A DNA stretch of 23,051 bases, from the IMG/VR virus record IMGVR_UViG_3300035670_001291, positions 1 to 23,051 of that record; one strand, 5' to 3'. The position numbers and the translations under genes are program-made. Below the pieces are notes generated by a model. That model was given only the letters and a program-made list of their open reading frames with translations. It ran no database searches and was not told the DNA's origin. Positions 4,266 to 21,328 of the stretch are shown piece after piece. This DNA is from a virus. The first letter of the stretch is position 1, and the number at the start of each line of letters is the position of its first letter.

Positions 4266-4279
4266 TGTTGATCCTGTTA

Positions 4280-4990
4280 TTAGAGAATAAGTCTTGTTGA
4301 ATGTTCGAGATCGGATAGTCTAAATACTTGCAAGTTAGCATAGGTATTAAAGCTATTAAAACTCACATTGCTATTGCTTGAATACAATCTGATTTTAAAG
4401 CCCGGTAATCCGCCGCCATTATTTTTAAATGCTTGCTCTGGCGCATTGAATAGCGTTGATCCATTTATTTGAGGATGCTTGCTTGTAAATCTATAATCCA
4501 TGTAAGTTGAGTATACTTCATAATTAGGGCTGTTGAGAGTAACATTTGATACTAACTTTATGCCCCATTCATGCCCTGCATTTACTTCAGGTGCGAAAAA
4601 AAATGCTTTTACAAAATACCAACCGGGTTTTCGAACATAGATATAGCGATCATACCAATTATACCAATACAAAGGCGATGAGACGATATTTCTTGTTTGA
4701 TTCCACGGAATATCAACTCCAACACTACCAGCATTAAAGTAAAAATCATTTATTCCTGTGATTTCAAATCCTGTGTTTTGCATATCCTGTTTTAAGGATG
4801 TTGCAGTCGCTTCGGCGCTTGCTTTTGCTTTTGCAAGAGTTGAATACGATACATCGCTTGAAGTATCTATAATTGTTTGTTCATTATTTACAACGGCATC
4901 AACATTATATTCGCTTGGATTGGTATCTACATCAAAAGCTACTTGCTGTCTTCCAATGCCGGCTGGCCTTATGGGTTCATTGAATTTCAT
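4280..4990 (-). CDS. candidate receptor-binding or tail appendage protein (236 aa)
   Basis: Starts by TAATG overlap with the 612-aa tail-tip gene. Residues 1-35 are extended. Residues about 45-70 (YSTLAKAKASAEATATSLKQ) form an alanine-rich helix that could be a trimeric coiled-coil stalk. The C-terminal 150 residues are rich in W, Y, F, N and G (DIPWNQTR, SPLYWYNWYDRYIYV, RKPGWYFVKAFFF), as in jelly-roll or C1q-like binding heads. A stalk plus an aromatic beta head after the tail tip suggests a receptor-binding protein. No enzymatic motif is seen. It could also be a structural tail-tip accessory. Confidence 0.6.
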   Translation of the reverse strand: MKFNEPIRPAGIGRQQVAFDVDTNPSEYNVDAVVNNEQTIIDTSSDVSYSTLAKAKASAEATATSLKQDMQNTGFEITGINDFYFNAGSVGVDIPWNQTRNIVSSPLYWYNWYDRYIYVRKPGWYFVKAFFFAPEVNAGHEWGIKLVSNVTLNSPNYEVYSTYMDYRFTSKHPQINGSTLFNAPEQAFKNNGGGLPGFKIRLYSSNSNVSFNSFNTYANLQVFRLSDLEHSTRLIL

Positions 4991-6828
4991 TAGATTGACT
5001 CCGCATCAATTCGTAGTGTAATATCTGACATGCCTTCATATATCTTATGCGAGTTAGCTACAATGACTGCCCGGGCTTTGTTAGTTCCGTAAATAGCTTG
5101 TAAAAGAGAATTATAATCATTTAAGTTTACTTCGCATCGCTTGCCTACATCGGGAAACTTAACTGCGCTATATGTGCTCGTCAAAGAGCCTTCTGCTTGT
5201 TTTGGCCGTCCGAGAAAGTTCACCATAGCAAGTGCCATCGTTGTAGGTAGTCCGCTTTCTTGCTGGTCAAGTAGCATCTGCACTTGTGCTCTATCTATAA
5301 GGCTATTAGTGCTTGAGTTTTGGGCAAAAGTCTCGCCACCAAAGGCAATCATGGTATAATGGCTAACCTTTCTTACTGATTCGATATATTCTGTTGTATC
5401 AAAATACAACAAATTACCAGAGTTTATAGTAAATCTAAACCATGCATATTCACCTGTGACTCCAAAATAAGTTATGCTTTTTCGATTTGTAATAATAGGC
5501 ACATTGTGAAACATAACTTTTAAGTCTTTACTATTATCGCCGCTTGTCCCTTGATTGCCGTATTTATAAATCTTTGTGTCGCTTTCGCCGTTCACATTAC
5601 TAACTGAAACATTGACTTGATTCAATGCTTCGCTAAACATCTTCATTTTGAAGTTGCCGTAAGTATTGTCCTGATTAAATTCAATACTCGGCGATGCAAG
5701 TGCTGGATACGGATTTGATGCTACCACAGTAGCCGTATATGCATCTGGCGTGCCCGTAGTGACTCCATATTCCAATCGTCCTATCTCAAGTGCATTCTCG
5801 GTTATTGAGCGATATACTTCATGAAAATTAGTAAACTGCTCAAACATTAGCGGATCTTTATGAGCGCCTGATACAAGGCGCGTGCCATCTGGCGTAATTT
5901 CCCAAATTTCAGCAACATAGCACAGATAATCATCACCTACTTCAACATTACTTATTACATTATTAGCATCATTCATTGTATAGAATGTTGTTGTTTCAGT
6001 AAAAAACTGGTGCGCCGTGAAACTTGCCGATACCTTTTGCGTAATTGATCTCATGTACGCACTATACATAGTGCCTATTTTCTCTTTCAATCGCTTGAAT
6101 GTAGATACATAAAGCAGATATGATCCACCAAGCCAATCAACTGCATATAACTCGCCAGATAATGAAGTCAATCCTGGATATTTACTAATGATAATTTCGC
6201 GAAAATTCGTATTCTCTGGCCTTGTAAGTGCAGTAGAATATGCAACTTGCTCGTCAGTAACTCGAAGCGCCATCTTCCACACATCAGGGCTTATGATCTC
6301 GCCAATGCATCGCATTATGTCGTAAATCTCAATGCTGAATCTAACGACATTATCCAAAGCGGTAACTTCAATCTCGTTCTCCGCGCTGTATTTTTGGCAT
6401 CCTATGAATGCGACTTTCCATCCGCTCCCGTCATTGTACTGCAGAATAAAAGTATTAAAAGCATCAAACTCAAGCTGGGAGTTTAGCAAAAGACCACTAA
6501 GAAAATTAGACCCATCGCTATTTAGCGGCTTGCGTTTTGCGGTCGTGCCTCGTAGTAAGTCGGCTCTTAGGTCATTGAGTGCGTCAGTGCCTTGCAAAGC
6601 GGCTATATTTACGCTGATTTTAAGCACTTGGCTAACAAGCCCTGCAGGGATGCTACCAAGCTCGGTATCAAGGCTCATATCTCGTAACAAGAACTCACTC
6701 GGCAGGGTAACATCGGAACTTACGCCGGGGCTTATGTAGTTTACACTGCTTGGAATGATATACATACGCCATTGAATGCTATCCTCGGAAGTCCAAGTGG
6801 TCACAAAGCGCTGATTTGTTAGAGCCAT
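4990..6828 (-). CDS. large tail-tip / baseplate protein (612 aa)
   Basis: Second gene after the tape measure. A long, mixed beta-rich protein beginning MALTNQRFVTTWTSEDSIQW, with no signal peptide or membrane segment. In siphoviruses the genes just after the tape measure encode the distal tail and tail-associated proteins, and the size and position here fit a Tal/baseplate-hub-like component. Blocks such as EIEVTALDNVVRFSIEIYD, at about residues 150-170, resemble the strand-rich hub domains of such proteins, but I cannot assign the family with certainty. It is coupled to both neighbours by TAATG, suggesting matched expression. No lysozyme or peptidase motif is seen. Confidence 0.65.
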   Translation of the reverse strand: MALTNQRFVTTWTSEDSIQWRMYIIPSSVNYISPGVSSDVTLPSEFLLRDMSLDTELGSIPAGLVSQVLKISVNIAALQGTDALNDLRADLLRGTTAKRKPLNSDGSNFLSGLLLNSQLEFDAFNTFILQYNDGSGWKVAFIGCQKYSAENEIEVTALDNVVRFSIEIYDIMRCIGEIISPDVWKMALRVTDEQVAYSTALTRPENTNFREIIISKYPGLTSLSGELYAVDWLGGSYLLYVSTFKRLKEKIGTMYSAYMRSITQKVSASFTAHQFFTETTTFYTMNDANNVISNVEVGDDYLCYVAEIWEITPDGTRLVSGAHKDPLMFEQFTNFHEVYRSITENALEIGRLEYGVTTGTPDAYTATVVASNPYPALASPSIEFNQDNTYGNFKMKMFSEALNQVNVSVSNVNGESDTKIYKYGNQGTSGDNSKDLKVMFHNVPIITNRKSITYFGVTGEYAWFRFTINSGNLLYFDTTEYIESVRKVSHYTMIAFGGETFAQNSSTNSLIDRAQVQMLLDQQESGLPTTMALAMVNFLGRPKQAEGSLTSTYSAVKFPDVGKRCEVNLNDYNSLLQAIYGTNKARAVIVANSHKIYEGMSDITLRIDAESI

Positions 6829-7291: not shown

Positions 7292-10200
7292 TTATCCTCT
7301 CCTTGCATTACGGCGGCGATCTCTTTCGATTACGGCCTTGATTGAGTTATTATCGGCTACAAGAGCGCCGCTTATTTCGACATGAGTATTCCGATTGATT
7401 TGCTTACCAAGCCCGCGGGTTTCTTCGCGAAGTTTTCTCACTTCTTGAATAAGATTGCCATCCTCTTGAACTGAATAGCGAACTTGGGGGGCTTGTGCTG
7501 TAAAGTAGTCGCGAATACTCATTCCGGGATTTGCATTCATCCACTCAAGCTCTTGGCGGTTTGCACGCGTACCCGCGGCTGTAATAACAGACTCGCCTTT
7601 TGAGAGCCATGCTGGTATTGAGTCGCTTCGCTCATCGCCCGGACCTTCGAGGCCTACAACGCCGTCTTTAAAGCCAAGAGAGCCACGCGCTGCTGAAAGG
7701 AGTAACTGAAGCCCTGCGGTCAATGTAGCAGCCACAATAGGCCCTGCAATCGGTCCGAGTGTGGTGATTGAACTTCCAAGAATACCGACCACAAAAGACG
7801 GTATCATTTTAGATACGGCATCGAATGCTGCACCCGCGGCGGCCGCTCCAAAGTCTGCTAATGTTGCTTTTCCGGATTCTGCAAGAGCGCCAAAAGATTC
7901 GAGTGTCTGACCGATTGCCTCATTGAATATCTTTTGATTGCCTTCCATGCCTTCGGCATTTTTCTTGAATATCTCGGACTGCGCTTTGAATACGCTCGCG
8001 GCGGTCTGATCTCCGACGGTTTTAAGGCGCTCAAGGAATGTAGTCTCCGTTTGCTCTTCGGCGGCCTGTCTTTGCGCGTCAATATCGGCAATTTTTGCGG
8101 CGTAATCCTCAAAGCTAATCTCTCTCTTTGCGAGGCTCTTTGTTAAGTCGTCTTCTTCAGCATTAAGAGCCCCTAAGCGTTCCTCACGAATCTTATCGTT
8201 TGCTTCTTTCTCTTTCTTGATTTTCTCTGCATTAAATACATCAAGAATGCTGGTCTGCAAAGCGGTTTGAATTTGGAACTCAAGTGTTGACTCGCGGGCG
8301 GCTTTCTCGATTGCGGTTTTGCTTTCAGTTCCGAATCGCTCTAGCCTAGAACTTAACAAGTTGATATTCTGAATATTGCTTTGTATAGACTCGCCAAATT
8401 TATCCGCCGCCTCTTGATTACCCGCCGCGATTGCCTCTGCTTGTTTGAGTGCGATTTCATCATTCTGAAGCTTTATGAAGTCGATATATTGTTGAACCGA
8501 CGCAATAGTGCCATCAAGTGCCTCTTGACTCGTGGCGAGGGTTTTGGGTACTAAAGACTCGGATGTTTTCTCGATTTCTTTTGCGAGATTAGCGTATTCT
8601 TTTTCAAAGTCTTTAAACTCGGGCGGCTTTGCACTGATACCTACTTCAACTACTAACTTATCCCCTAACTTCGCCATTTCTTGCGTATAGAAATTATCTA
8701 TATCTGCAACTGTTTCGCCTTTCTTTTTACTAGGAGTTATTTTTGCAGTAAGCTGGTTTTTATCAAGGAACACATTAGCATCTGCAATACCTCCGATACG
8801 CTCGTTAAGGTATTTCCGTAGCTCGACATTTGCTTCGGCTTCGAGTTGTGCCCTTAATGCTTTTTTATCCTTACCTCTGTTTTTTTCAGAGTTTAGCTCC
8901 CGCTCAATATCATTCTTTAGCTCGTCTTGGCGGCTTTTGTAGAATCTTTTGAGTTGCTGAAGTTCGGATTCTGCATCTTTTGCAGTTTGCGAGCCTTTTT
9001 TCTTTTTCTTTTCATCTTCTAATTTCTTCTTTTCTTCTTCAGTTAGCTCTGTAAGTTTTATGTTTTCAAGACCTGTTTTCTTCGTATCTTCTATTGCTTT
9101 CTTTTGCGCCTCTGCAGTTGCTTTAATAGTCTCTTTTGTTTTATTAAATCCGCGATCATACGCTTGACTTACTTTATCACCAAAACCAGTAAAAGCTTCA
9201 AGCGCTTTTTTAAGGTCAAACTGTGTAATAGCATCCCAAAACTCACCGATAGTAGTTTTGATTTGAATAAAGGACTCGCGAACGCCTCCGATAGTTCCTC
9301 GGATGTTATCGAATGCAGTGCGGAGCGTATCGACAAAACCTTTGGACTGTTTTACCGCCTCGCCTGACTGCTTTACTGATTCTGTATTTTTATCATTGCT
9401 TTGCATCCATCCTGCAATCGATCGCACTACATCAGCAATGACGGATATAACGGTTTCAAGTGGGGTAATTAAGAACTCTATAATTAGCCCGCCAAAGTCT
9501 GCAATAATGCCACCGACTTCGCCCATTACTTCAGTCATAAGATTCAAGCCATCTTGAAACATCTTAACGACATCCATGCCCTCACCAAGAGCGCCGTCTA
9601 GTCCGAATGCTTCTTTGAATACTTGTATCAAAGGCTGCAACGCGTTTACAATAGCGTCAAATGCTGATGAAAATACATCATAAATTGTAGTTATCACTAC
9701 CATAGCAGCATTTAGAACGCCAACTATATTTATCATTATCCCACCGCCAATCAATGCTAAAATAGGCTGCACAATTGACCATCCTCTTTCAAACGCACCA
9801 CCTATAGCATCACCAAGTTCGGTCAAAGTCGGCCCGATCGCTTGTGCTATCATGCCGAAAGTCTGAGATAAGCCTCCGACAACAAGCGCGCTGCCTTTTT
9901 CAAAGGCAAGCGATAAGTTACGACCAACCATATCAAAGCTTAGATACTGCCCTGCTGCATTCATAGCATCTTTACCGGCTTGCTCTGCTTTTTTCTTAAT
10001 TTCATCGACTGGTATTGGAGCGCCGAACATTTTGTTATAGGCTTCGACTCCAATATCTTCGGCTGGCGTTCCGGCAACTGCTACTTGTAATTGTGTAGCC
10101 ATCGCTTCGGAGATTTGCCCCGAATCGAATGCAGTTTTAATAGCTTCGCCTGATTTGCTTAAGAACTCTTTGATAGTAATTTGGCCACTTGATGCAAGTT

Positions 10201-11290
10201 GCTCAAGATTGCCAAGAGTTGAACCAAGCGCTTGCGGTAATTGAGTTTTTATATCTGCAAATGCCTTTGCCGTATCACCCGCTTTTAAGCGGATTTGCGC
10301 TTCTTTGATAGAGTCTGCAATCTTGTCGGTATTAAACAAGCCCTCTTGCCCTGCTATTGCCATTTGACCCGCGAACTCTTCAGCAGAGAATCCTGCTTCT
10401 TGCAATAACTGAGAATACTCGGCAAGTGTATCAAGCACGTCGTCTTGTGATGTCTTGCCCTCTTTGGCTGCAAAGGCAATCAAGTCGAATGCTTCTTGCC
10501 CGCCAAGACCGAACTGTTTAATAAAGGGCGCTGATTTCGCAACTACTTCGTTAACATCCTTGTCATAGAGAGCTCCAAGCGCTTGCGCCCCTGCTGTGAA
10601 TTTACCAAGTTCTTCGGTAGGGAGTGCCCCTTTTAGCACTACAGCCGCATTACTAATCACTTTCGTAGCTTCGGCTGCTGATTCACCAACGCCACCAAGG
10701 AATGCATCCTCGGCGGCTTTTTTAAGAGCTTCAAGTTCATCACCCGTCGCGCCTGTTTGAGCTTGCAAGTCTCCTTGTGCGGAAATAAGCCCGCGCCCTG
10801 CATCTACCACCGCTCCAAAGCCATCGACAATAGCACCGATACCAGTTTGAACAGCACCTGCAATACCACCACCAACAAGCCCGCCAATCAAACCACCTGA
10901 GAATGCATCATTAAGCCCGCCTTTTAGTCCCTCAAAAACGCCACCAATGCCACCAGCAGATGTCTCTACTTCTTGAAATGAGGCATTGACAGCATTAGTA
11001 GCATCTTCCATTTTTTTAAGCTCTACATTGGCTTCTTTAATGGCTGCTTCTATTTCTGCATAACTATCAGACCCCTCTTTGCCTTGCAATCGCAAGGCTA
11101 CTAAGAGCTGTTTTTGTTCATTGACAAAACTATTGAGCTTGTTTTGAGCCGAGGGTATATCGGATGCTATGGCATCTCCGACATCAGGGAGGCCTTTAAT
11201 ACCGTCATTGACTTTTTTTAATGCTACATCCAAACCGTTGAAGAGTTGAGATGCATCTAAACCAAGTTTGATTTTAATATCATCGGCCAT
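7292..11290 (-). CDS. tail tape measure protein (1332 aa)
   Basis: The longest ORF in the window. It overlaps the chaperone frame by 11 bases and starts MADDIKIKLGLDASQL, a common tape-measure opening. It has helical segments throughout. A glycine-rich hydrophobic stretch lies at about residues 131-165 and another at 508-540 (ILALIGGGIMINIVGVLNAA). A lysine-rich coiled coil follows at about 740-830. Near the C-terminus a hydrophobic block precedes the motif GFKDGVVGLEGPGDERSDSI, a form known in tape measures. The protein sets tail length and is thought to help DNA cross the membrane. At about 1.5 angstrom per residue, its length predicts a tail near 200 nm. Confidence 0.93.
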   Translation of the reverse strand: MADDIKIKLGLDASQLFNGLDVALKKVNDGIKGLPDVGDAIASDIPSAQNKLNSFVNEQKQLLVALRLQGKEGSDSYAEIEAAIKEANVELKKMEDATNAVNASFQEVETSAGGIGGVFEGLKGGLNDAFSGGLIGGLVGGGIAGAVQTGIGAIVDGFGAVVDAGRGLISAQGDLQAQTGATGDELEALKKAAEDAFLGGVGESAAEATKVISNAAVVLKGALPTEELGKFTAGAQALGALYDKDVNEVVAKSAPFIKQFGLGGQEAFDLIAFAAKEGKTSQDDVLDTLAEYSQLLQEAGFSAEEFAGQMAIAGQEGLFNTDKIADSIKEAQIRLKAGDTAKAFADIKTQLPQALGSTLGNLEQLASSGQITIKEFLSKSGEAIKTAFDSGQISEAMATQLQVAVAGTPAEDIGVEAYNKMFGAPIPVDEIKKKAEQAGKDAMNAAGQYLSFDMVGRNLSLAFEKGSALVVGGLSQTFGMIAQAIGPTLTELGDAIGGAFERGWSIVQPILALIGGGIMINIVGVLNAAMVVITTIYDVFSSAFDAIVNALQPLIQVFKEAFGLDGALGEGMDVVKMFQDGLNLMTEVMGEVGGIIADFGGLIIEFLITPLETVISVIADVVRSIAGWMQSNDKNTESVKQSGEAVKQSKGFVDTLRTAFDNIRGTIGGVRESFIQIKTTIGEFWDAITQFDLKKALEAFTGFGDKVSQAYDRGFNKTKETIKATAEAQKKAIEDTKKTGLENIKLTELTEEEKKKLEDEKKKKKGSQTAKDAESELQQLKRFYKSRQDELKNDIERELNSEKNRGKDKKALRAQLEAEANVELRKYLNERIGGIADANVFLDKNQLTAKITPSKKKGETVADIDNFYTQEMAKLGDKLVVEVGISAKPPEFKDFEKEYANLAKEIEKTSESLVPKTLATSQEALDGTIASVQQYIDFIKLQNDEIALKQAEAIAAGNQEAADKFGESIQSNIQNINLLSSRLERFGTESKTAIEKAARESTLEFQIQTALQTSILDVFNAEKIKKEKEANDKIREERLGALNAEEDDLTKSLAKREISFEDYAAKIADIDAQRQAAEEQTETTFLERLKTVGDQTAASVFKAQSEIFKKNAEGMEGNQKIFNEAIGQTLESFGALAESGKATLADFGAAAAGAAFDAVSKMIPSFVVGILGSSITTLGPIAGPIVAATLTAGLQLLLSAARGSLGFKDGVVGLEGPGDERSDSIPAWLSKGESVITAAGTRANRQELEWMNANPGMSIRDYFTAQAPQVRYSVQEDGNLIQEVRKLREETRGLGKQINRNTHVEISGALVADNNSIKAVIERDRRRNARRG

Positions 11291-11603
11291 TGATTCTGCG
11301 CTCCATTTTGCGGCGTTCTTTGTGGTAATTTACGGTATAGGCATATGTGCGGATTACATCGACACGGGGCGTGTCGTAGTAAAGTCTCAAATACGCTGCA
11401 GGATCGCCGCCTGCAACGCCTTTGAATATCCAATAAGAGCCTATAAGTTCGCCGAGATAATACGCACTGTCATCGTCACTCTCTTCATACTCGTCATCGT
11501 CTGGGTCATTAAAGACCACAAGCTCATTCAAATAGTACTCACACAATGCGGATTCGTTTGCATACTGTTTCACGAAAAAACTTAAGTGAGTCCAAGATTC
11601 CAT
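11280..11603 (-). CDS. tail assembly chaperone, downstream frame (GT-like extension)
   Basis: ORF between the G-like chaperone and the tape measure. It is in the +1 frame relative to the upstream gene. The frame is open from about 11654 (GTG), and the only ATG is at 11603 (MESWTHLSFFVKQYANES). Neither start has a convincing RBS, so I think it is made mainly by frameshifting at 11574-11580, giving a 251-aa fusion. It contains an acidic patch (NDPDDDEYEESDDDSAYY) and a basic end (YHKERRKMERRINGR). In known phages the G and GT forms help fold and load the tape measure, and the location fits exactly. The coordinates give the ATG version. The frameshifted part would run 11573-11280. Confidence 0.65.
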   Translation of the reverse strand: MESWTHLSFFVKQYANESALCEYYLNELVVFNDPDDDEYEESDDDSAYYLGELIGSYWIFKGVAGGDPAAYLRLYYDTPRVDVIRTYAYTVNYHKERRKMERRINGR

Positions 11604-12036
11604 CAAGATCTTGGTTTTGCCAAAACTCGCTTGTAACTTCGGACTGAATACCACTCAAGAGCTCTGTATTCTGCACTTTGCTCTCATCTATCACTGCTTT
11701 CACAAACTCAAAGATTTTCGGTATGGTTGTATCATCGACATTGATAAGCTCGAATAAGTTTGCACGGACTTTCAAATATGCAGTCTTTACAATCTCTTGA
11801 AACTCAAACTCATTCATAATATCTTTGAACGCTTCTTGCCCCTTTGTCAAGTCTATCTTTTTTGCAAGGCTCTCGCGGCTAAATACCTTCTCCATGATCT
11901 CGGTCTCGGCGGCTGCTTGAGCGCCTTTAGTATTTGCAAGTTCTGAGAGAAGCGGCGTAACCTTGTCATAAAGAGCAGGGGTCAATTTAGTGTAAAGTGC
12001 TACTTCGTGTGCTGTTTCGTTTAGGTATAATTTCAT
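11539..12036 (-). CDS. tail assembly chaperone, upstream frame (G-like)
   Basis: A 165-aa helical protein starting at 12036 with AAGGAG 6 bases upstream. The sequence MKLYLNETAHEVALYTKLT opens with strands, followed by helices (ALYDKVTPLLSELAN, LFELINVDDTTIPKIFEFV). It sits between the major tail protein and the tape measure, and its 3' end overlaps the next ORF by over 60 bases. Siphophage tail chaperones typically show exactly this size, place and overlapping partner. Its last residues after the slippery site (RETVCKRIRIV) belong only to the non-shifted form. The family call is inference from synteny, and the sequence alone is not diagnostic. Confidence 0.72.
   Translation of the reverse strand: MKLYLNETAHEVALYTKLTPALYDKVTPLLSELANTKGAQAAAETEIMEKVFSRESLAKKIDLTKGQEAFKDIMNEFEFQEIVKTAYLKVRANLFELINVDDTTIPKIFEFVKAVIDESKVQNTELLSGIQSEVTSEFWQNQDLDGILDSLKFFRETVCKRIRIV
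11571..11583 (-). other. candidate +1 ribosomal slippery site
   Basis: On the minus strand the upstream frame reads AAG TTT TTT CGT (11583-11572). Slipping one base forward lets the Phe tRNA move from TTT to TTC, and translation then continues GTG AAA CAG in the downstream frame. Lys152-Phe153-Phe154 would join VKQYANES. It lies 12 codons before the upstream stop, in the overlap. Confidence 0.5.
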
Positions 12037-12090: not shown

Positions 12091-12639
12091 TTACGGCGTA
12101 TTAGGGTCTGTGAACCATACTTCTTTGTAGCCAATCTTTGCGGGGATTGTAACTGCTTCCAAGCCTGTTACAAGAGTAGTCAAAAAGTAGCTTGTCCCAA
12201 TAACCAAGTCAGTATCGTTGTTCACGATATCGCCTGCTACCTTTGGCTTTGTATACTTACCTGACTCTTGATCGAATGAACCAGCATCTTGAGCCATTTT
12301 GCAAAGCATCAAGACTACCTTACGCTTCTTGCTCACTGTGTCAACGCCACCATATACGATTTGCAAAAGTGTGTCGCTTGTCGCTTGTGATGAGTTGAAC
12401 TTTGTGCCATCCTCATACTCACCTTGGTCTGCAGTTACGGTTGTAACAGGTGCATATTCTTCGAGGAAGTCTGTGAGTTCCGGATTGTCTTCGTTTTGAT
12501 CGATTGTAAATGTTGTTCTTGTCAATGAAGTTTTGATTTTGCGCTTCATTGAATAAACAGGGGTCGCTCCGACTGTTGGATTTGTCCCGAGTTCATTGGC
12601 TGTGTAAAATACGCTAAGGTTAGCGCCGCCTACTACCAT
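12091..12639 (-). CDS. major tail (tube) protein candidate (182 aa)
   Basis: Starts at 12639 with AAGAGG upstream (ATATC spacing) and ends before the GC hairpin. It opens MVVGGANLSVFYTANELGTN and is beta-rich throughout (KIKTSLTRTTFTIDQNEDN, LLQIVYGGVDTVSKKRKVVL), with threonine-rich strands, the usual look of phage tail tube proteins. It sits between the terminator candidate and the chaperones, as expected. A strong RBS and a stabilising hairpin fit a highly expressed virion protein. It is also the closest potential substrate for the glycosyltransferase encoded just before it. The identity rests on synteny plus composition. Confidence 0.75.
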   Translation of the reverse strand: MVVGGANLSVFYTANELGTNPTVGATPVYSMKRKIKTSLTRTTFTIDQNEDNPELTDFLEEYAPVTTVTADQGEYEDGTKFNSSQATSDTLLQIVYGGVDTVSKKRKVVLMLCKMAQDAGSFDQESGKYTKPKVAGDIVNNDTDLVIGTSYFLTTLVTGLEAVTIPAKIGYKEVWFTDPNTP

Positions 12640-12643
12640 GATA

Positions 12644-13339
12644 TTACCTCTTGGATAATTGTTTTACATAAGAAAAAGTGTTAACTAAATAGTCCCAGTT
12701 TCGTTGTGATTTCTCGCGTGTGTATTCTCGCACCATTAAGCCGCCGTTTCGTTTTGCTTTCTCAAGTATCGCCTCTTTGTCTTGGCTATATCCTTTGTGG
12801 TATAGCAAAATATCCGTATCGGCTGTGACCGTGCCATCAAGATCTAAATGCAGTGTCTCATGGCAAATTGCCTTCCACTTTAGGAACGAACTACGGCGGT
12901 GCAATCTCATTGCAGGGATATTATACCGAGTGCGTATGTTTGGGAATTTCTCATCAATGTCATAATTGCATCCTGCAATAGAGACATACGCCGCGACTGC
13001 TTCAGTTGGATTGATCTCGCTCAAATACGCCCAAAACTCATCATGCGGACTTGCAAGGCGCTCATCGGAGTCCATGTGCAATATCCAATCACCAGTAGCA
13101 TATTCATCTAGCTTGTTTCTGCAATAACTAAAGTCAAAATACTCTTCAAAACTCGGATACTCCCAAGACAATACGACATGATCGCTTGTGCGACCAATCT
13201 CACGAAACTCTGGCTCTTTGAGGTCCGGGTTCACTGCAGTTCGAAGAGCAATCACCTCGACATTGTCTTCGGGCAAAGAGTCGCGCCATCCTTTCAGGTC
13301 ATCTCCATCCTGAAAGATTACACAAGCACTCAATTTCAT
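12644..13339 (-). CDS. GT2-type glycosyltransferase in the tail operon (231 aa)
   Basis: Overlaps the tail-terminator gene by ATGA and ends 4 bases before the next ATG. Motifs typical of family 2 glycosyltransferases of the SunS-like group are visible. The opening strand MKLSACVIFQDGDDL comes first. Then FSYCRNKLDEYATGDWILHM and D-S-D-E-R-L place the metal-binding DxD at residues 90-92. A final block, AMRLHRRSSFLKWKAICHE at about 143-161, resembles the R-x-x-R-W-x-x-HE pattern of that group. The enzyme is short but has both halves of the GT-A fold. It would transfer a sugar from a nucleotide donor. Its position suggests a virion protein or a host surface target. Substrate unknown. Confidence 0.85.
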   Translation of the reverse strand: MKLSACVIFQDGDDLKGWRDSLPEDNVEVIALRTAVNPDLKEPEFREIGRTSDHVVLSWEYPSFEEYFDFSYCRNKLDEYATGDWILHMDSDERLASPHDEFWAYLSEINPTEAVAAYVSIAGCNYDIDEKFPNIRTRYNIPAMRLHRRSSFLKWKAICHETLHLDLDGTVTADTDILLYHKGYSQDKEAILEKAKRNGGLMVREYTREKSQRNWDYLVNTFSYVKQLSKR

Positions 13340-13800
13340 ACTTCACCTCTGTAATATACCGTTCTAAATGTCATAAATGAGATGCCTTTGGTCTCATCGT
13401 CGTTATATGTTACCGCTTGAGAGTCTATAAAGTGCACAGGCGCAAATATCGTGCGCTCATAATCGGACTCATAGACTGTAGGGCTGTAATTTGTGAGCTT
13501 ATTTTCAATTGCCTCGCATAGATCGGCTAAAGCATCGCGTAAATTCGCCTTACCCGCGGTGCTATTCTTCTTGACTTGCACTCCGACAAGCAAATACATA
13601 TCCAAAGTGCCCTTGTTAGCAAAAGCGGAGTCATCTTCGAGCCCAATGACCTCGCGAGCGTCTGCACCTGAAAGAATACCGACAAAAGGGAACTGATAGG
13701 TATTCCACTTGTCAAGCATCACTTGGTCATAGACTTTCACACCGCTCATAGTGCGTAGTTTATCGGCTATAGATTTGAGCGCCGCTGATTCTCTTGCCAT
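13336..13800 (-). CDS. tail terminator / completion protein candidate (154 aa)
   Basis: Overlaps the gp10-like gene by 34 bases and the glycosyltransferase by ATGA. Helix-rich start ESAALKSIADKLRTMSGVKV, then DQVMLDKWNTYQFPFVGIL, where the Y-Q-F-P-F-V strand is common in minor tail or tail terminator proteins. Later come MYLLVGVQVKKN and LRDALADLCEAIENKLTN, the usual alternation of strands and an amphipathic helix, and finally the paired strands FMTFRTVYYRGEV. The order connector, gp10-like, this gene, major tail protein matches siphophage head-tail joining genes. Family assigned from layout and fold pattern. Confidence 0.68.
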   Translation of the reverse strand: MARESAALKSIADKLRTMSGVKVYDQVMLDKWNTYQFPFVGILSGADAREVIGLEDDSAFANKGTLDMYLLVGVQVKKNSTAGKANLRDALADLCEAIENKLTNYSPTVYESDYERTIFAPVHFIDSQAVTYNDDETKGISFMTFRTVYYRGEV

Positions 13801-14360
13801 TGTTGTATTCCGGATATGACTTGTTGTTTTATATCGTTTGCAAATTTAGAGTCTTGCCTGAGCCGCTCAACTGCGGGATTAAAGTAAGGTCGCGCGGGTA
13901 TATTCACACCGCCTTTCTTTTCGACTCCAAGTGCAAGGCGTTTGAAGTACGGCTGCTTTGTTTCATAGAACTTAGCCCAAAAGAATTGAGCCATTGCATA
14001 AGTGGACTTGTTCATCTTACGACCGCTTTTGCTTTTAATCACGGTCAATGGTGATGCTTTAATAAACCCGCCAAATTCTTGTATTGCAGCATATCGAACA
14101 CTTGAACCGTATTCTACCTCAAAGTTATTGCCTTGTTCTGAGACTTTGAAAACATTTCCGGGCTGTCCTTTTGCAAAACTTCGGAAAAGAGCACCAGAGT
14201 AAGTTGTTAGTTTATCGCTCTTTGATGGTGCGATTCTATCGGCTTGACCCTGAAAGGTCATATTCGCTCCGATATACGCCTGCATCACAAACGGCATCCG
14301 TTCCAAGCTATTTAGGATAACTGGCCGTAAAATGCCCTTTAAAGCTTCAGCATTGATCAT
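13767..14360 (-). CDS. head-tail joining / morphogenesis protein, HK97 gp10 or Mu gpG-like (197 aa)
   Basis: It begins 2 bases before the connector stop region and overlaps the tail terminator gene. Key motif: EVEYGSSVRYAAIQEFGG at about residues 79-96 and later VNIPARPYFNPAVERL, the typical YAxxxEFGG and PARPFxxPA pattern of the phage virion morphogenesis / HK97 gp10 family. Between them is an insertion with a helix (MAQFFWAKFYETKQPYFKRL), which is longer than in minimal family members. It ends in a charged helix IQQWQENQRRSNL. In known phages these proteins close the connector and join head to tail. Confidence 0.82.
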   Translation of the reverse strand: MINAEALKGILRPVILNSLERMPFVMQAYIGANMTFQGQADRIAPSKSDKLTTYSGALFRSFAKGQPGNVFKVSEQGNNFEVEYGSSVRYAAIQEFGGFIKASPLTVIKSKSGRKMNKSTYAMAQFFWAKFYETKQPYFKRLALGVEKKGGVNIPARPYFNPAVERLRQDSKFANDIKQQVISGIQQWQENQRRSNL

Positions 14361-14362
14361 AA

Positions 14363-14989
14363 TTAGACCGTTGGTATAACGAACTGCGCAAAGTACTTAT
14401 GCCATCCTATATCGGTTTTGAGCGATTGGCTAACTGTTTGACCCGCGCCGCCTGTTGCTACCGAGTTAAGTCCGAACCAATTGCCGCCTTGAGGGCTTTG
14501 TTTGTATGCAAGTGCTACCATTTCGGCTATGCCTTGCAAGATTGTATATGGCATTGCTGCGTCGGTATAACCAGTCGCAAGCGTCGCTTTAAATTGTCCT
14601 GTTGTCTTATCACGAAATACAATATAATTCGCATATGGCTCTGCATTCCATGCGTAATTACCCGCGTCAAAATTCGCATATGTGCCAAACTCATTCTCAC
14701 GCCATTGCAGAGCCGTGAGAGTGGTATTTGCAGCATAGGGTATGTATTTCCATGAGTGATTCGCTTCGAGGCCTCTTTGGGCTTTAGAAGCGTAAAATTG
14801 ATAATTTACCGTACCGCTACGGAGAGGCTGGCCACAATAGGACTCAGCCTCCACATAGCACGTCGTAATCAGGTCATCAAACCAAGTATAGAGCGCCGTA
14901 TCCTCGGATGTCGGATCGCCATTAACTTCCAAATTAAGAAAGGTCATAAGAGCCGAGAAAGCCCTTGGATTTGCACTTGTATATGGCAT
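14363..14989 (-). CDS. head-tail connector (gp6-like) protein (208 aa)
   Basis: Starts at 14989, 2 bases after the stop of the 55-aa gene. The N-terminal half is helical with a signature-like ALYTWFDDLITTCYVEAESY, the long helix of gp6/YqbG-type connectors, followed by CGQPLRSGTV. The middle contains aromatic strands (NYQFYASKA, NHSWKYIPYAANTTLTALQW). The C-terminal helix LQGIAEMVALAYKQSPQGG is likewise typical of this fold. These proteins form the ring below the portal. It is a little longer than minimal family members because of the strand insertion. Context (after capsid, before gp10-like) supports the call. Confidence 0.8.
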   Translation of the reverse strand: MPYTSANPRAFSALMTFLNLEVNGDPTSEDTALYTWFDDLITTCYVEAESYCGQPLRSGTVNYQFYASKAQRGLEANHSWKYIPYAANTTLTALQWRENEFGTYANFDAGNYAWNAEPYANYIVFRDKTTGQFKATLATGYTDAAMPYTILQGIAEMVALAYKQSPQGGNWFGLNSVATGGAGQTVSQSLKTDIGWHKYFAQFVIPTV

Positions 14990-15170: not shown

Positions 15171-16355
15171 TTAGGTTGTTGAAGTTTTGAGAACGCCGAT
15201 TGCAGAAGGAGCTGGGAATGCGAAAGCAACGCGCTCAACTACTTCGATACCTTTTTGATGAGTTCCACCCAAGCCAGTAGCACCAAAGTATTCTTTGTAT
15301 TCGTTAACTGTAACGTCTTCGCGGATACCCATTACTGTAAATTGTGAGAAGTCACAATAAATTGCAGATGCTTTGTTTGCTGCGCTTGATGGGAAGAGTG
15401 CATCAGGTACAACATGCATCGGGCGGCCTGTTGGTGTGAAGTATGTATTTCCTGTGAGTGCTGTGAGGCCAATTGAAGGAACATCAAGCGGTCTAATCAT
15501 ATCGAATACAGGGCGGCTGCCTGCTGTTTCTTTCATCAAGAATCCGAATACGCTTTGAGGCACTACGAATACGCCATTAGCACCAACGCCAGAGTTAATA
15601 CCAAGGCGCAAGTTCCAAAGGTCTGTCCAAGAAATATCGGAGAATGCATCTTTTGTAGATGAATCTGAACCACCTTGGCGAACTACTGTAGTATTTGCTG
15701 TATTGAGCAATCCTGTAAAGTTAGCACCTGAACCGTCACCATTGAAAAATTGCTTGTCTTCAGTTTCAGCAAGAGCGCGACCAAGGCCGTTCACAACATA
15801 ATCCAAGAATGCAGGAGTTGCATCTTGCAATTGCTCTTCGGAGATAATCGCACCAGCTACGAGCTTCTTAGCACTCATTGCAGTTGCTGTGAAGAAGTTT
15901 GTTGAGTCTGTAAGTGTCAAACCAGAACCTTCAGCAACTACTGCGCCTGTGAACGCGCCGCTTGATACCAAGTTCTCTGTTTTGCCGCGCATTGGATAGA
16001 TTTTTGCGAGTGCTCTTGCATATCCGTATTGGTCTGCAAAAGACATGATTTCTTCTACCCAAAACTGAGGAACTGCAGCGCCACCTTGTGAGGATGTGCC
16101 AGTGTTGAAGTTTGCGCGTGTGATATACTTCTCGTTTGCTTTGCGTGCAATGTCATCTGCTTGACCTTCGCGGCCTTTGTGAACTGCGAGAATGTAATCA
16201 GCAACTACGCGAGCTTGGTCGCGGCGTGCATCATGGTCTGCTTTAATAGATACAAAGCCATTAGTTGCAGTTGGCTTTTGTGTGCGAAGTTGGTCTGCTA
16301 CCTTGCGGTCTACAACTTCTTTGAGTTGGTCTTTTGTTACGATAATGTTTTCCAT
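15171..16355 (-). CDS. major capsid protein, HK97 fold (394 aa)
   Basis: Starts at 16355 with AAGGAT upstream. Residues 1-80 form a charged helical region (MENIIVTKDQLKEVVDRKVA), followed by the typical mature start region FNTGTSSQGGAAVPQFW at about residues 83-99. The body has strand-rich segments with EEQLQDATPAFLDYVVNGLG, AETEDKQFFNGDGSGANFTG and the spine-like GIEVVERVAFAFPAPSAIG near the end, as in HK97-type capsids. Known relatives lose the N-terminal delta domain by action of the adjacent protease. The length matches the family. Cleavage at about 80-90 is inferred. Confidence 0.92.
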   Translation of the reverse strand: MENIIVTKDQLKEVVDRKVADQLRTQKPTATNGFVSIKADHDARRDQARVVADYILAVHKGREGQADDIARKANEKYITRANFNTGTSSQGGAAVPQFWVEEIMSFADQYGYARALAKIYPMRGKTENLVSSGAFTGAVVAEGSGLTLTDSTNFFTATAMSAKKLVAGAIISEEQLQDATPAFLDYVVNGLGRALAETEDKQFFNGDGSGANFTGLLNTANTTVVRQGGSDSSTKDAFSDISWTDLWNLRLGINSGVGANGVFVVPQSVFGFLMKETAGSRPVFDMIRPLDVPSIGLTALTGNTYFTPTGRPMHVVPDALFPSSAANKASAIYCDFSQFTVMGIREDVTVNEYKEYFGATGLGGTHQKGIEVVERVAFAFPAPSAIGVLKTSTT

Positions 16356-16368
16356 TATGCTAATATCC

Positions 16369-16827
16369 TTAGATTAAATTAAGTAATTCTTCAGTGTTAA
16401 GTTTTTTAGGCATATTCAACGTAATTGAACGGCCTGCTTCGCCGGCTACTGCAGTCTTGATGATTTTGTAACCGGCTTGGATCATATCCATACCTTCATT
16501 GATTTGCGCTTGTGTGGAAGCTGCAATTTTCTTACCTACGCGAACTTCAGGGGCTTTGAATCCCGCTTGCACTTCTTCTTCAGCAACCACTTCAACTGGT
16601 GGCTCGGCTGCTGCTGGTTCAGGTGCTACTTCAGGCTCAACTACGGCGGGTGCTTCGCCTTTGAGAACTGCAAGCATTGGAGGCGCGCCTGCTGTGATAA
16701 ATGCATTAACTGAGGCTTCGGCTTCTTCAGGTGAAAAGCCAAGATTGATTACCTCATTAACGAATGCTTCCTTAATTGCAGGAAGTAACTCGTCTTTGAT
16801 CTTTTGCTCGATCTCAGGGGTTAACAT
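16369..16827 (-). CDS. nested in-frame scaffold candidate (152 aa)
   Basis: Internal in-frame ATG at 16827 (residue 181 of the protease ORF) preceded by AGGA at 16835-16838 with 7-base spacing, in an A-rich leader. The product would begin MLTPEIEQKIKDELLPAIKE and consist only of the helical scaffold-like region. This is the arrangement of lambda C/Nu3 and several other phages, where the scaffold is the 3' end of the protease gene. Seen here: SD, start and composition. Inferred: expression and role. Confidence 0.6.
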   Translation of the reverse strand: MLTPEIEQKIKDELLPAIKEAFVNEVINLGFSPEEAEASVNAFITAGAPPMLAVLKGEAPAVVEPEVAPEPAAAEPPVEVVAEEEVQAGFKAPEVRVGKKIAASTQAQINEGMDMIQAGYKIIKTAVAGEAGRSITLNMPKKLNTEELLNLI

Positions 16828-17367
16828 TCTTTTTTCCTTTTTGAATTTATTGATTGATTCTTGTAGCAATGTCTTGATTGATTTCTTAATAAGAGCTTGG
16901 CGATTTGCTGGGACTGAAACAACGCTAAACTCTACTAGTTCGGATTGAGTGTATACTGTTACTTTTTGACCATCGATTGTTTGCTCTTCGTATTCCTTTG
17001 GAATGATACCTACAGACACGGCTTTGACAAATCCGGCATTGATGAGTTTATTGAGCTTTTTGCCTTCTTCGGTAATACACTCAATTTGAATCGTCGCTTC
17101 TAAATTCTCACCATTCATTGCAAAACCCAAGCAGCGACCAATAGGCCACTTGTCAGAGTCATGTTGTGCTAAGACAATGGGATTATTTAGATATGCTGTA
17201 TAGTCTATTCCGCTTGGAACTATAATAGTGCCATAGCGATCAACTTCGGGAGTGGAGACTACAAAGGTATAGAGATCGTTCTCTTTTTCTTCGTATTCTT
17301 TGCCCTCTTTTTCGTACTCGTAGCCGTCCCTAAGTTGCAGGTTCAGCTCGCGTGTTATTAAATCCAT
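16369..17367 (-). CDS. prohead protease (HK97 family) with C-terminal scaffold-like half (332 aa)
   Basis: The N-terminal half (about residues 25-165) is an HK97-family (S78) prohead protease. EVDRYGTIIVPSGIDYTAYL leads to the catalytic His69 in VLAQHDSDKWPIGR and the catalytic Ser118 in GFVKAVSVGIIPKE, and then ELVEFSVVSVPANRQALIKK. The C-terminal 150 residues (from Met181) are helical and rich in alanine, glutamate and proline, with blocks such as PAVVEPEVAPEPAAAEPPVE. This resembles phage scaffolds. An internal start at Met181 has its own Shine-Dalgarno. The full-length protein would process the capsid N-terminus. The start at 17367 is supported by AGAGG upstream. Confidence 0.85.
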   Translation of the reverse strand: MDLITRELNLQLRDGYEYEKEGKEYEEKENDLYTFVVSTPEVDRYGTIIVPSGIDYTAYLNNPIVLAQHDSDKWPIGRCLGFAMNGENLEATIQIECITEEGKKLNKLINAGFVKAVSVGIIPKEYEEQTIDGQKVTVYTQSELVEFSVVSVPANRQALIKKSIKTLLQESINKFKKEKRMLTPEIEQKIKDELLPAIKEAFVNEVINLGFSPEEAEASVNAFITAGAPPMLAVLKGEAPAVVEPEVAPEPAAAEPPVEVVAEEEVQAGFKAPEVRVGKKIAASTQAQINEGMDMIQAGYKIIKTAVAGEAGRSITLNMPKKLNTEELLNLI

Positions 17368-17385: not shown

Positions 17386-19401
17386 TTACTTTTCAACTGG
17401 GAATAATTGGCATCGGCAATTGATAGCATTGGAAGCGCTTAAGCCCTCACCAAGCGGGCGCTTTGCCTTTTCGGTTGTTGTGCTTATGATATTGCCTTCG
17501 GAGTCTCTTACTTCATTCACTACCGTAAAGTATCCATCCGCGCCTTGCTTTGAGCCTTCCATGCGAGCATGAGACGGTCTTACGCGGCTATCTCTTTGAG
17601 TTAGCCATACCATCTCAAAGCCCTCGTCTTTATAGACTGCATATTGCATCCCGCTTGTAACATTTGCGGCGGTTGTATTTGCGATTGCACGCGCTCTGCT
17701 TGTTTGCAAAGAGTCGAACTTGCTTGTAAGTATCTTAAACAGCTCGTCTTTGTCTTTACCAGCATTTGCAGTTAAAGTCGCTTGAACTTCTTGCTTGATA
17801 ACTCCGATAGAATCGCGAATCTTTGCGCTTGATTCTTCGACCAAAGCTACCACCTCTGCAGTTGGAGGCACGCCGCCTTCGATTGCAAGTGTAGCATAGA
17901 GTTCTTGTGCTACTTCATTACACGCCTCGGCAATGATTGCATCGTATTGTGCAAGTTCAGCTTCGGGAATATCCACAGTTGCAAGAGTTAAAACGCCTTC
18001 ATCTGCTAATTGAAAAACTTGTTCTTTGATTTGAGCAATAATCATCTCAATAACATTCTCAAGAGATCCGGCATTTGCCTCTGTTATGCCGTCGAAGTTT
18101 CTCCAGAACAAGTCCTTTGCATCGGCTGTTATGAGTGGGAGCTTACCGTTTGATCGTGTTAGTAATTTCCGAGCCGCTACGGGCACAGGAGCGGGGTTTG
18201 CGACGTTTTGCAAAGGAACTAAGCCACTTGCAATGAGGGGCACATTACCTTCTGGCACAGGATCATATCCACGAGCGCCGCGTGCTTCGTTGATTGTCTT
18301 GATTCCCCACTTAAGCTCAAACTCTTCTTGCCTCAAATCAGCGTCGGGATCTGCATAAGTGTACGGCTGTGCTTCGATTAAGACATCCTCTTCCCATCTA
18401 CGGAAGTGGCGCGTAAATTCCTCTGCAATATAGAGCGCTTCGGGGTCTATTGTGTTTTGCCTAAAAATTGCCCACTGAACATCTGCAGTCGCTCTGTTTT
18501 GAAACGAGCCATCGAGCATACCAGGAGGCACGCCAAAGACTTGTGCGATTTGAGCGCGGGTATCACGGCTCACTGCGTCATAGCTCACCGCAAGCTCGCC
18601 TTTTGGTGGTAGTTCTAATTGCATTCCACCACCAAGCAAAGCGCGGAGCTTGTAGTCCGGTAGTTCTTCATTCCAAGCGCTCTTAAGCTTTTGCCATTCG
18701 TCTTGGTCGAATCTTTCAGGGAACTTTGCAATAAGAGGCGGGACCGTATTATTCGCAAAGAGACGCGCTAAATACGCACTCACCTCGCGGTCTATGTTCG
18801 CATATTCAAGAGCGGCTGAAACAAGACCAACGCCAAAGATATTCATTCCAATGATTTCTTCAGGGCGGCTCGCGGGGTGGAGCTTTGCAAGGTGAATAAC
18901 CTCTTTTTCAGGTATTGCGATATTGCCTTCTTGCGCTGACTGATAGACATACCCATCAATAAAGTTATTCTCGCCTTTTATGACTCGCATTCTTGTCGGA
19001 TTTAGCACCCACATCTGCAAAGGCACGCGGTAGCCGTTTGTAGGTGTCCATATAAACGCATTGCCGTTAATTGAGAGCCAGTTTTCAATATATCCGAAAA
19101 CTTGAGAGCGAGTAAAATACGGATTAGGATTTGCAAGAAGCTCACTAGTCCAATGACCGCGACCAAGTTCCTCTTTCTCCCAATTTTGCTCTTTATACGC
19201 ATCAAACTTGATACCACTCAAAGCATTGGCTCGATGCTGTAAACAAGCAAAGACAGTGCCTCGAAGCGACGCGGTTAACTCATTGCCGACTTGAGTAGCA
19301 CCGATATTGCGAGAGCCACCTGACCGTATAAACGGTCTGTCATTCTTGCGCGGTGCAACTGCAGCCGCGATCCTATCTCTAAGTTGGTCAAGTAGACTCA
19401 T
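17386..19401 (-). CDS. portal protein fused to a MuF-type minor head domain (671 aa)
   Basis: Starts by ATGA overlap with the terminase. Residues 1-400 match an HK97-family portal: the N-terminal FACLQHRANALSGIKFDAYK, a middle section VIHLAKLHPASRP and LLGGGMQLELPPKGE, and the FGVPPGMLDGSFQNRATADV region at 289-308. A proline-rich linker (about 400-411) is followed by a helical region, and then by a Mu gpF-like domain at about 570-668. That domain contains the WLTQRDSRVRPSHARMEG motif at 599-616 and the terminal NAINCRCQLF. The MuF protein, usually a separate minor head protein attached to the portal, is here covalently fused, with no start or stop between. Confidence 0.9.
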   Translation of the reverse strand: MSLLDQLRDRIAAAVAPRKNDRPFIRSGGSRNIGATQVGNELTASLRGTVFACLQHRANALSGIKFDAYKEQNWEKEELGRGHWTSELLANPNPYFTRSQVFGYIENWLSINGNAFIWTPTNGYRVPLQMWVLNPTRMRVIKGENNFIDGYVYQSAQEGNIAIPEKEVIHLAKLHPASRPEEIIGMNIFGVGLVSAALEYANIDREVSAYLARLFANNTVPPLIAKFPERFDQDEWQKLKSAWNEELPDYKLRALLGGGMQLELPPKGELAVSYDAVSRDTRAQIAQVFGVPPGMLDGSFQNRATADVQWAIFRQNTIDPEALYIAEEFTRHFRRWEEDVLIEAQPYTYADPDADLRQEEFELKWGIKTINEARGARGYDPVPEGNVPLIASGLVPLQNVANPAPVPVAARKLLTRSNGKLPLITADAKDLFWRNFDGITEANAGSLENVIEMIIAQIKEQVFQLADEGVLTLATVDIPEAELAQYDAIIAEACNEVAQELYATLAIEGGVPPTAEVVALVEESSAKIRDSIGVIKQEVQATLTANAGKDKDELFKILTSKFDSLQTSRARAIANTTAANVTSGMQYAVYKDEGFEMVWLTQRDSRVRPSHARMEGSKQGADGYFTVVNEVRDSEGNIISTTTEKAKRPLGEGLSASNAINCRCQLFPVEK

Positions 19402-20558
19402 ACATATATCTGTGGTGTTTTGCGAATCGCATTGAAAGCATAGCCCAATGCATCAATAAAGTCATCATGTTTGTCTTGCGGAGTGCCCGTAAAACTGAGC
19501 AGCTCCTCAGTAAATTCCGGATTGATATGAGGCACGTGATATACAAGCCCTTGCTCGTATCTTGCTTCAACTGGTTGGAAGCGTATCACCTTGTCTCTAT
19601 CAGCTCGGACACCGACTACATTCATCTTGGTATTTCGTTTCAGCTCTTGAACCATCCAAGCCTGCGCTTGATTTGATTCGACTGCAACTACTCTTGCATT
19701 CCATCTTTGTTCTGCTGCAATGATTCTGCGTCCTATCTCTTGAAACTGCGCTCTAAAGTGGTCCGCTTCAACTACAACAACCTCGCCTTCTTTTGTCGTG
19801 CCTATTACAACGATTGCCGTATAGTCTGCAGTCTCTTTCTGGCTAATTGCCAAGTCAACTCCAATGTAATACGCCGTGCATTCTTGGCCGTTTGTCGTGC
19901 GTAGCCATTCACGCTTGATCTTAGCAGCAGAGCGGTCAACATATTCTGCAAGAAACTCTTGAGCAAATACCAAGCTCGGAAGCATCTCTTTTTGTCTATC
20001 AATTTCGCTGACTTTGATTTGACCGCCGTCATAAGTGCTATAGTGAAACGACTGCCAGTCTTGCATTGTCTCTGACATTTGGTCAAGCTGCCAAAAATGA
20101 TTTTTGCCTTTTGGCGTGGAGAAGAAAAACGCATCTCCTTCATAATCGGCAAGCATCGGACTTATGACAAAATTCCAATCGTCTTCAGCATTCGAACAGT
20201 GAGCCCACTCATCACCAATAAAGCGGTGAAACTTATTACCGCGAAGACCGTCGGCACGGTAAATACCTTGCAATACCAATGTACTACGGCCTAGTTTAAT
20301 TTGGCCTTGTTTGTAAGTTGCACCAAGGGGTGCAAAGAACTGCTGCGCTTCTGTTTCTCTACCTGATAGCTCGGTATATGAGGGCGCGGTGTATAAGACA
20401 TACGCTCCATCAATTTCCAGCATTTTCTCAAGGGCCAAAGCAAAAGCGAGATAAGACTTGCCAAAGCGACGACCGCACCGAACAACATTAAAGCGCTTCC
20501 GATTCCGAAGTATCTCAAGCTGTTTATCATGCGGTTTTATCCGTACTACTGTGTCCAT
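19398..20558 (-). CDS. terL: terminase large subunit (386 aa)
   Basis: ATPase domain: Walker A CGRRFGKS at residues 28-35 (preceded by FNVVR), Walker B/FIGDEW at 113-118, and the coupling motif FFFSTPKG at 144-151. Nuclease domain, RNase H-like: GVDLA at 233-237, a glutamate strand VVAVESNQAQAW at 290-301 with Glu294, and the acidic KHDDFIDALGYAF at 363-375. Together these are the expected catalytic parts for DNA translocation and cutting during packaging. At 386 residues it is at the short end for large terminases but keeps all motifs. It overlaps the small-subunit candidate by 32 bases and the portal by ATGA. Confidence 0.94.
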   Translation of the reverse strand: MDTVVRIKPHDKQLEILRNRKRFNVVRCGRRFGKSYLAFALALEKMLEIDGAYVLYTAPSYTELSGRETEAQQFFAPLGATYKQGQIKLGRSTLVLQGIYRADGLRGNKFHRFIGDEWAHCSNAEDDWNFVISPMLADYEGDAFFFSTPKGKNHFWQLDQMSETMQDWQSFHYSTYDGGQIKVSEIDRQKEMLPSLVFAQEFLAEYVDRSAAKIKREWLRTTNGQECTAYYIGVDLAISQKETADYTAIVVIGTTKEGEVVVVEADHFRAQFQEIGRRIIAAEQRWNARVVAVESNQAQAWMVQELKRNTKMNVVGVRADRDKVIRFQPVEARYEQGLVYHVPHINPEFTEELLSFTGTPQDKHDDFIDALGYAFNAIRKTPQIYV

Positions 20559-20865
20559 TCTGTGAACCCCACTCTATAATCATTTTGCCTTTTTCTGCTA
20601 CTTGGTTATCCAAGTGTGCGAGTAACTCCATTAGCACTTTCATCGCGGTAATATCTTCTTTTAGCAAGATCTTCTTATGTATCAGCATATTGATAATATC
20701 ACCAGCGACGGTCTCTTTGTCTTTGCCGGGTTTTGAAAGCTCCTCGGCTGCCATCTTTGCAAGGTCTTTGACATAAGTAATTGAGCCCTTTGGCCTACCA
20801 TTCCGATTGATACGCTCGGGCTTGTCTCTGAAGCTATGTCCTTTGAGATTATCAGCGCCTGCCAT
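20527..20865 (-). CDS. terminase small subunit candidate (112 aa)
   Basis: Sits immediately upstream of terL and overlaps it by 32 bases. AGGAG lies inside the preceding gene, 6 bases before the ATG at 20865. The N-terminus has DKPERINRNGRPKGSITY, the N-G-R-P-K-G signature of DUF5681-like and related small terminase or regulatory proteins, thought to give DNA contact. It is followed by a helical segment (VKDLAKMAAEELSKPGKD) and a C-terminal helix MKVLMELLAHLDNQVAEKGK that could mediate oligomerisation. The position supports a DNA-recognition role in packaging. The family match is to the short motif only. Confidence 0.75.
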   Translation of the reverse strand: MAGADNLKGHSFRDKPERINRNGRPKGSITYVKDLAKMAAEELSKPGKDKETVAGDIINMLIHKKILLKEDITAMKVLMELLAHLDNQVAEKGKMIIEWGSQNGHSSTDKTA

Positions 20866-21328
20866 AATAAACTCCTAAACCTAATCCAATACCAAGTGCG
20901 CCAACTACCCAACTCCAATTATTCTCTGTGCGAATTTCAGTCGGCAAAGTAATTACCTTAATTGAGTCAGGTCTTGGGCGGTAAACAAGTGAAAAATGTC
21001 CTTTGCGGTTTGCATAGGCAAAAGCCATATTGATTGTGTCTTGAGTCGCGGTAATTACTGAGTCGCTTTGTGCTATAAATGCAGTATCTCCGCATGGTAT
21101 TTCAACAGGGCGATCAAGAAAGTAAATAGTATCTTTAGTGCGAATAGTTACGGACTTCGTATGTACTGAGTCTCTAATCGTCACAGGGCGCTCTAAGACC
21201 TGAACTTGAGTAATTGTATCAGTTAGTCTTTTTTGGCTTGTCTTGCCTATGTGAAGCCCTGAAACAAAGCCGATAATAATCAAGACTCCAACCAGAATAG
21301 CAGCATTGAGTATGTCGTTAAATTTCAT
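20852..21328 (-). CDS. two-membrane-segment protein, spanin-like candidate (158 aa)
   Basis: Overlaps the phosphoesterase by ATGA and the small terminase by 14 bases. A hydrophobic helix at about residues 8-26 (NAAILVGVLIIIGFVSGLH) lies near the N-terminus. A second at about 138-155 (WSWVVGALGIGLGLGVYY) ends in GRR. Between them is a soluble, strand-rich region of about 100 residues (TVTIRTKDTIYFL; IPCGDTAFIAQSD). Bacteroidota phages often carry similar proteins of unknown role. Placement of the loop outside the cytoplasm is inferred. A spanin, superinfection exclusion or entry role are possible but not shown. Confidence 0.6.
   Translation of the reverse strand: MKFNDILNAAILVGVLIIIGFVSGLHIGKTSQKRLTDTITQVQVLERPVTIRDSVHTKSVTIRTKDTIYFLDRPVEIPCGDTAFIAQSDSVITATQDTINMAFAYANRKGHFSLVYRPRPDSIKVITLPTEIRTENNWSWVVGALGIGLGLGVYYGRR

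Follow-up and report, generated by a model that had tools for sequence, protein, structure and literature searches.

On balance, we think that the viral record analyzed here, a stretch of 23,051 nucleotides that we refer to as the window, encodes a late, cytosolic protein glycosyltransferase (GT) of the SunS/ThuS/GmaR kind that adds sugar to a virion protein, most likely the adjacent putative major tail protein (MTP). The GT frame is intact, begins with ATG and encodes 231 residues, and it lies within a siphovirus-type order of genes: terminase, portal, protease, capsid, adaptor, Neck1, putative tail terminator (TT), GT, putative MTP, two overlapping frames, and tape measure (Table 1). An earlier note on this DNA had described the gene as joined to its neighbors by ATGA and a 4-base gap, and we confirmed both; the 4 bases (12640-12643) separate the GT stop from the ATG of the putative MTP gene. 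In the mechanism that we propose, the enzyme is small, soluble, and metal-dependent. Its translation from the head-tail operon would be late and coupled to that of the TT and the MTP, and it would take its sugar from a nucleotide sugar supplied by the host and attach it to a virion protein, either ahead of tail assembly or in the course of it; the MTP, the product of the next gene, is the most likely acceptor.

Table 1. Features of the window on and around the GT gene
Feature	Coordinates	Strand	Basis or remark
SunS/GmaR-like GT-A fold glycosyltransferase (GT), 231 aa, single domain, no TPR tail	12644-13339	-	fold and profile searches
DSDE motif codons (GT residues 90-93)	13061-13072	-	no variation at D90, D92 or E93 in 26 clade members
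HE motif codons (GT residues 160-161)	12857-12862	-	invariant in 26 clade members
ATGA overlap of GT start and putative tail terminator stop	13336-13339	-	same -4 overlap in most relatives
Putative tail terminator (TT), 154 aa, by position	13336-13800	-	between Neck1 and MTP; conserved in clade
Putative major tail (tube) protein (MTP), 182 aa, by position	12091-12639	-	5' of tail-assembly-chaperone pair and TMP
Putative tail assembly chaperone, first frame	11539-12036	-	overlaps next frame; invariant TTTTTTCG
TTTTTTCGT, putative +1 programmed frameshift site	11572-11580	-	T-run and CG invariant in 14/14 aligned relatives
Putative tail assembly chaperone extension, +1 frame	11280-11654	-	overlap with first frame
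Tape measure protein (TMP)	7292-11290	-	PHROG tape-measure matches up to 4e-18
Neck1 / tail completion protein	13767-14360	-	phrog_26, 3e-6
Putative head-tail adaptor	14363-14989	-	phrog_442, E 0.03, weak
Major capsid protein (MCP, HK97 type)	15171-16355	-	PF05065, 7e-23
Prohead protease	16369-17367	-	PF04586, 3.5e-8
Portal protein with C-terminal MuF-like domain, same frame	17386-19401	-	PF04860, 2e-40; PF04233, 3e-9
Large terminase	19398-20558	-	phrog_38, 8e-37

Relatives were gathered by a single scan with the GT protein and by additional ones with alignments of the GT, MTP, TT, and MCP, and they span identities down to approximately 51% for the TT and 34% for the GT. The GT lies directly after the TT in all 64 distinct TT..GT viral stretches, and the MTP is also visible downstream of it in 55 of these; in every locus without a GT, the contig breaks off before reaching the place where the GT would lie. 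Comparison of the locus with relatives, which the earlier note had proposed as a check, thus found the same GT in the same place in close and distant relatives alike (64/64). An unrelated insertion or moron is ruled out, as the GT occupies the slot of every relative whose contig reaches that slot. The TT-GT junction lies between -4 and +2 in all but two distinct proteins, mostly as a -4 overlap, and the GT-MTP junction ranges from -17 to +10. The dN/dS of the GT against nearer relatives is approximately 0.04-0.09, indicating purifying selection, and the GT diverges faster than its neighbors (83% at a TT identity of 92%; 57% at a TT identity of 82%). The 64 distinct stretches without exception, together with this dN/dS, indicate that the arrangement is more than chance; a spurious ORF at this position is ruled out by the dN/dS and by the predicted fold. 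Virion glycosylation has been measured in a few mycobacteriophages and discussed there as antibody shielding, and the earlier note had offered evasion of antibodies or of host recognition as a purpose, for which our analysis gave no support. That every member found of this uncultivated clade keeps the enzyme inside the tail operon suggests an assembly or environmental role rather than occasional immune evasion.

We found no cultured phage in INPHARED that matched the GT (tblastn, E 1e-3) or the MTP, and no literature report of the GT clade; bacterial genomes yielded two short GT matches only. In searches aimed at the host, the capsid, portal, terminase, and metallophosphoesterase gave distant matches only, in phages of mixed hosts, and the gene at 20852-21328 gave none.

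Searches of Pfam with the single GT sequence returned PF13704 (E 6e-4, 20.7 bits, cut-off 27.5) and PF00535 (E 5e-3, 17.3 bits, cut-off 23.3), both short of their thresholds, so we file the GT as a GT-A enzyme by its fold and not as a member of either family. The best NCBIfam match was SunS (TIGR04195, E 1.2e-8), at 34.3 bits also below its cut-off of 350. The only PHROG with a convincing match was phrog_13126 (phage beta-1,4-glycosyltransferase; E 5e-5), a weak partial match to a profile of 394 positions that is longer than the GT. Against the PDB, the single sequence matched SunS at 5e-6, and a profile built from the clade alone matched GmaR at 2.6e-17, SunS at 4.9e-11, and ThuS at 1.3e-10; we quote the clade-only profile because one that includes the distant TPR-bearing GTs inflates the GmaR score. 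The AlphaFold2 model (pLDDT 92.9, pTM 0.88) has a GT-A fold, and the six PDB entries that it matches best are chains of SunS or ThuS (TM 0.65-0.70, E 3.5e-12 to 2.6e-11), followed by SpsA and other GT2 enzymes, with TarP, TarS, and RmlT among the weaker ones. There are 172 PDB matches at E <= 0.001, and the best 50 of the 172 are dominated by GT-A/GT2 enzymes. Since fold and profile agree, the glycosyltransferase assignment is secure. The earlier note had spoken of clear GT2 motifs; the identity of the enzyme holds, although this wording is slightly too strong for Pfam matches that fall below cut-off.

SunS and ThuS glycosylate Cys of peptides, and ThuS also Ser (PMC6405829), and GmaR modifies flagellin with GlcNAc (PMC9638930). 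Because these closest matches all modify proteins or peptides, a protein is favored over a host glycan as the acceptor. With SunS/ThuS (PDB 7msn, 7msp, 7msk; TIGR04195) the GT has in common the GT-A core and the signature DFSxxRN...WI..xDxD, HE, HxGY...K..RN, but identity is approximately 18% and the GT is without the C-terminal TPR/helical domain, the donor-site Asp, and a nearby bacteriocin peptide; no glycocin cluster is present among the window genes read. The GT domain of GmaR (PDB 22ao), a Listeria flagellin O-GlcNAc transferase, is the best match of the clade-only profile, and the substrate of GmaR is a protein whose subunits build a helical filament (PMC9638930). Unlike the GT, GmaR has TPR, linker, and antirepressor domains, the canonical donor loop VDTGSTD, and a different acceptor; its TPR segment has been proposed to bring the protein substrate (PMC9638930). 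The mycobacteriophage enzymes Che8 gp110, Corndog gp38, and the Myrna GT glycosylate capsid and tail-tube proteins, as far as Freeman et al. 2023 is summarized in PMC12363180 and PMC12619734, and the analogy between them and the window GT concerns function alone, which was measured there and is predicted here.

Examination of the active site revealed no change at D90, D92, E93, R145, H160, E161, or H181 across 26 diverse clade members, with the DSDE that the earlier note had placed at residues 90-93 found there and the HE that it had placed near 160 found at 160-161. In GT2 enzymes, the Asp of the VVDTGSTD region after strand 2 contacts the nucleotide. None of the 26 clade members has this Asp, their residue at the site being R, Q, E, K, or V; all eight TPR-bearing phage homologs have it. 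Approximately 12-14 extra residues follow the lost Asp, modeled as two strands (44-50 and 54-61) and not as the usual loop and helix. Given that the Asp is replaced and the following loop and helix are remodeled, donor binding is uncertain. The structural comparison that the earlier note had proposed places the GT-A fold closest to SunS/ThuS, while the donor pocket, missing the usual nucleotide-contacting Asp, is not simply SunS-like. The GT ends after two C-terminal helices at residue 231, and its homologs continue into TPRs. With the donor Asp lost and the TPRs absent, both the donor pocket and the part that recognizes the acceptor have changed, and the metal and HE sites are kept. From these residues, we infer that the GT is probably an active but specialized enzyme. 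A single-domain protein GT without TPRs would be a handy tool for studying acceptor choice.

The putative TT had no HMM match in Pfam or PHROG, and a PDB profile search with it gave nothing useful. Likewise, the putative MTP had no HMM match and no PDB sequence match, and its AlphaFold2 model (pLDDT 77.8) had no significant PDB fold match; tail tubes (NF5, P1) are among its non-significant Foldseek matches. Both names are positional assignments, with which the flanking Neck1, chaperone-like pair, and TMP genes are consistent. In the overlapping frames between the MTP and TMP genes, all 14 relatives in the alignment carry the same TTTTTTCG, the second frame lies in +1, and the pair probably encodes frameshifted tail assembly chaperones produced by a programmed frameshift. 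This chaperone-like pair supports the assignment of the MTP by position.

Co-variation was assessed in 45 genomes with all genes by partial Mantel tests from which co-variation with other genes had been removed. GT distances track those of the MTP best (r 0.35 overall, 0.47 in one subset and 0.41 in a second, with p 0.0005 in each case), a co-variation for part of which physical linkage could account. The corresponding values for the TT were 0.11 overall and 0.44 and 0.22 in the two subsets, significant in both subsets, and partial co-variation with the MCP and the adaptor was weak or inconsistent. As to the source of the sugar, 16 contigs of 35-48 kb were examined, some of which may be incomplete; 15 have no GT2 match other than the GT, and no epimerase, nucleotidyltransferase, or thymidylate-synthase/hydroxymethylase-type gene was detected in the 16. 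Since they yielded no sugar-nucleotide genes, the nucleotide sugar is probably host-made. The contig of the most diverged clade genome (locus L164, genome G011) has a second, sub-threshold GT2-like match at 3420-3599.

Distant GT matches are mostly TPR-bearing SunS-like enzymes, and many of them adjoin virion genes on unrelated contigs. The loci were picked out by their similarity in sequence and were not sampled by context, and their placements stand without a background rate; the contexts come from the order of the ORFs, with PHROG confirming part of them. L109 and L110 each have phrog_30644 and tape measure genes downstream, with Neck1 upstream in L110, and major-tail-like genes lie directly downstream of the GT in L093. 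The GT lies between Neck1 and tape measure genes in L104, precedes adaptor, Neck1, and minor tail protein genes in L111, lies between portal and capsid genes in L094, and follows the capsid gene in L097 and L118. In L101, L112, and L358-L368, TPR-bearing SunS-like GTs likewise have capsid, neck, tail, or tape measure genes as neighbors, and the loci added by a scan with the L109 enzyme lie mostly just after capsid-like genes, as judged by eye. The contexts of some other loci (L102, L106, L108, and L116) are ambiguous. This recurrent placement beside virion genes favors a virion acceptor in general, not a tail acceptor in particular. In L362, a capsid-like gene and a small gene are followed immediately by a tandem pair of SunS-like GT genes (3965-6556).

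Given that adjacency does not fix the acceptor, the same type of enzyme might instead modify another virion protein, namely the major capsid, tail terminator, tape measure, or receptor-binding protein. That the TPR-bearing GTs of other phage contigs often adjoin capsid and not tail genes would fit such an acceptor, as would the significant co-variation with the TT in both subsets, but the position beside the MTP never changes within the clade and the MCP and the adaptor show weak or no consistent partial co-variation with the GT; we regard a different virion acceptor as unlikely, though deserving of some weight. The earlier note had named late modification of host-surface glycans as its alternative, and an enzyme acting on such a glycan or envelope polymer could, for example, counter re-adsorption of progeny to debris or superinfection. 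Surface glycans are the products of many GT2 enzymes, TarP, TarS, and RmlT appear among the weaker fold matches, and phage-encoded serotype-converting GTs are known, as far as summarized in PMC12619734. However, the GT has no membrane segment (the maximum mean hydropathy over 19 residues is 0.78), its closest folds and profiles are those of protein-directed enzymes, and its gene is locked inside the tail operon, which makes a host-glycan acceptor improbable.

We also consider it quite improbable that catalysis has been lost and that the GT serves as a tail assembly factor or minor structural protein. While its fixation in the tail operon and the loss of the canonical donor Asp and nearby loop would suit such a protein, the constancy of DxD, E93, R145, and HE down to 34% GT identity is unexpected for a scaffold role alone. 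Glycosylation of phage DNA bases seems scarcely credible, even though some viruses do encode GTs that hypermodify DNA (Pyle 2024, as cited in PMC12619734). The gene lies in the tail module, away from DNA genes, and the finding of no thymidylate-synthase-type gene in the 16 contigs renders DNA modification unlikely; a Tet/JBP search carries no weight here, its control having given no match either.

Since neither the comparison of the locus nor the predicted fold spoke against it, glycosylation of a virion protein is the best reading. The earlier note had suggested that the phage glycosylates its own tail or capsid, and this finds partial support, although we only infer which tail or head protein accepts the sugar. 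The fixed slot between the same two tail genes and the protein-directed kind of enzyme together suggest that these phages probably sugar-coat part of their own tail, to a benefit that might be, for example, tail stability, masking, or adsorption. Against glycosylation of the MTP stand the replaced donor Asp, the remodeled loop, the absent TPR segment, and the MTP itself, which has no obvious Ser/Thr-rich extension. The GT and the adjacent MTP, at approximately 230 and 180 residues, make a clean, testable candidate enzyme-substrate pair. More tentatively, tail-protein glycosylation may be an obligate ancestral assembly step in the whole clade, carried out by a minimal TPR-less GT with a remodeled donor site that possibly takes an unusual nucleotide sugar, with such GTs placed repeatedly in the head/tail operons of unrelated phages.

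Near the start of the window, at positions 94-895, four diverged copies of a 70-nucleotide repeat (66-87% alike) lie about the points where small ORFs begin and end; Rfam matched nothing in the window. The proteins of the small ORFs at 119-361, 333-656, and 610-906 share TEATMSKQT(A/S)V(E/D)WL close to their N-termini and GDHE at their C-termini, and by this likeness of sequence the three are tandemly duplicated small genes.
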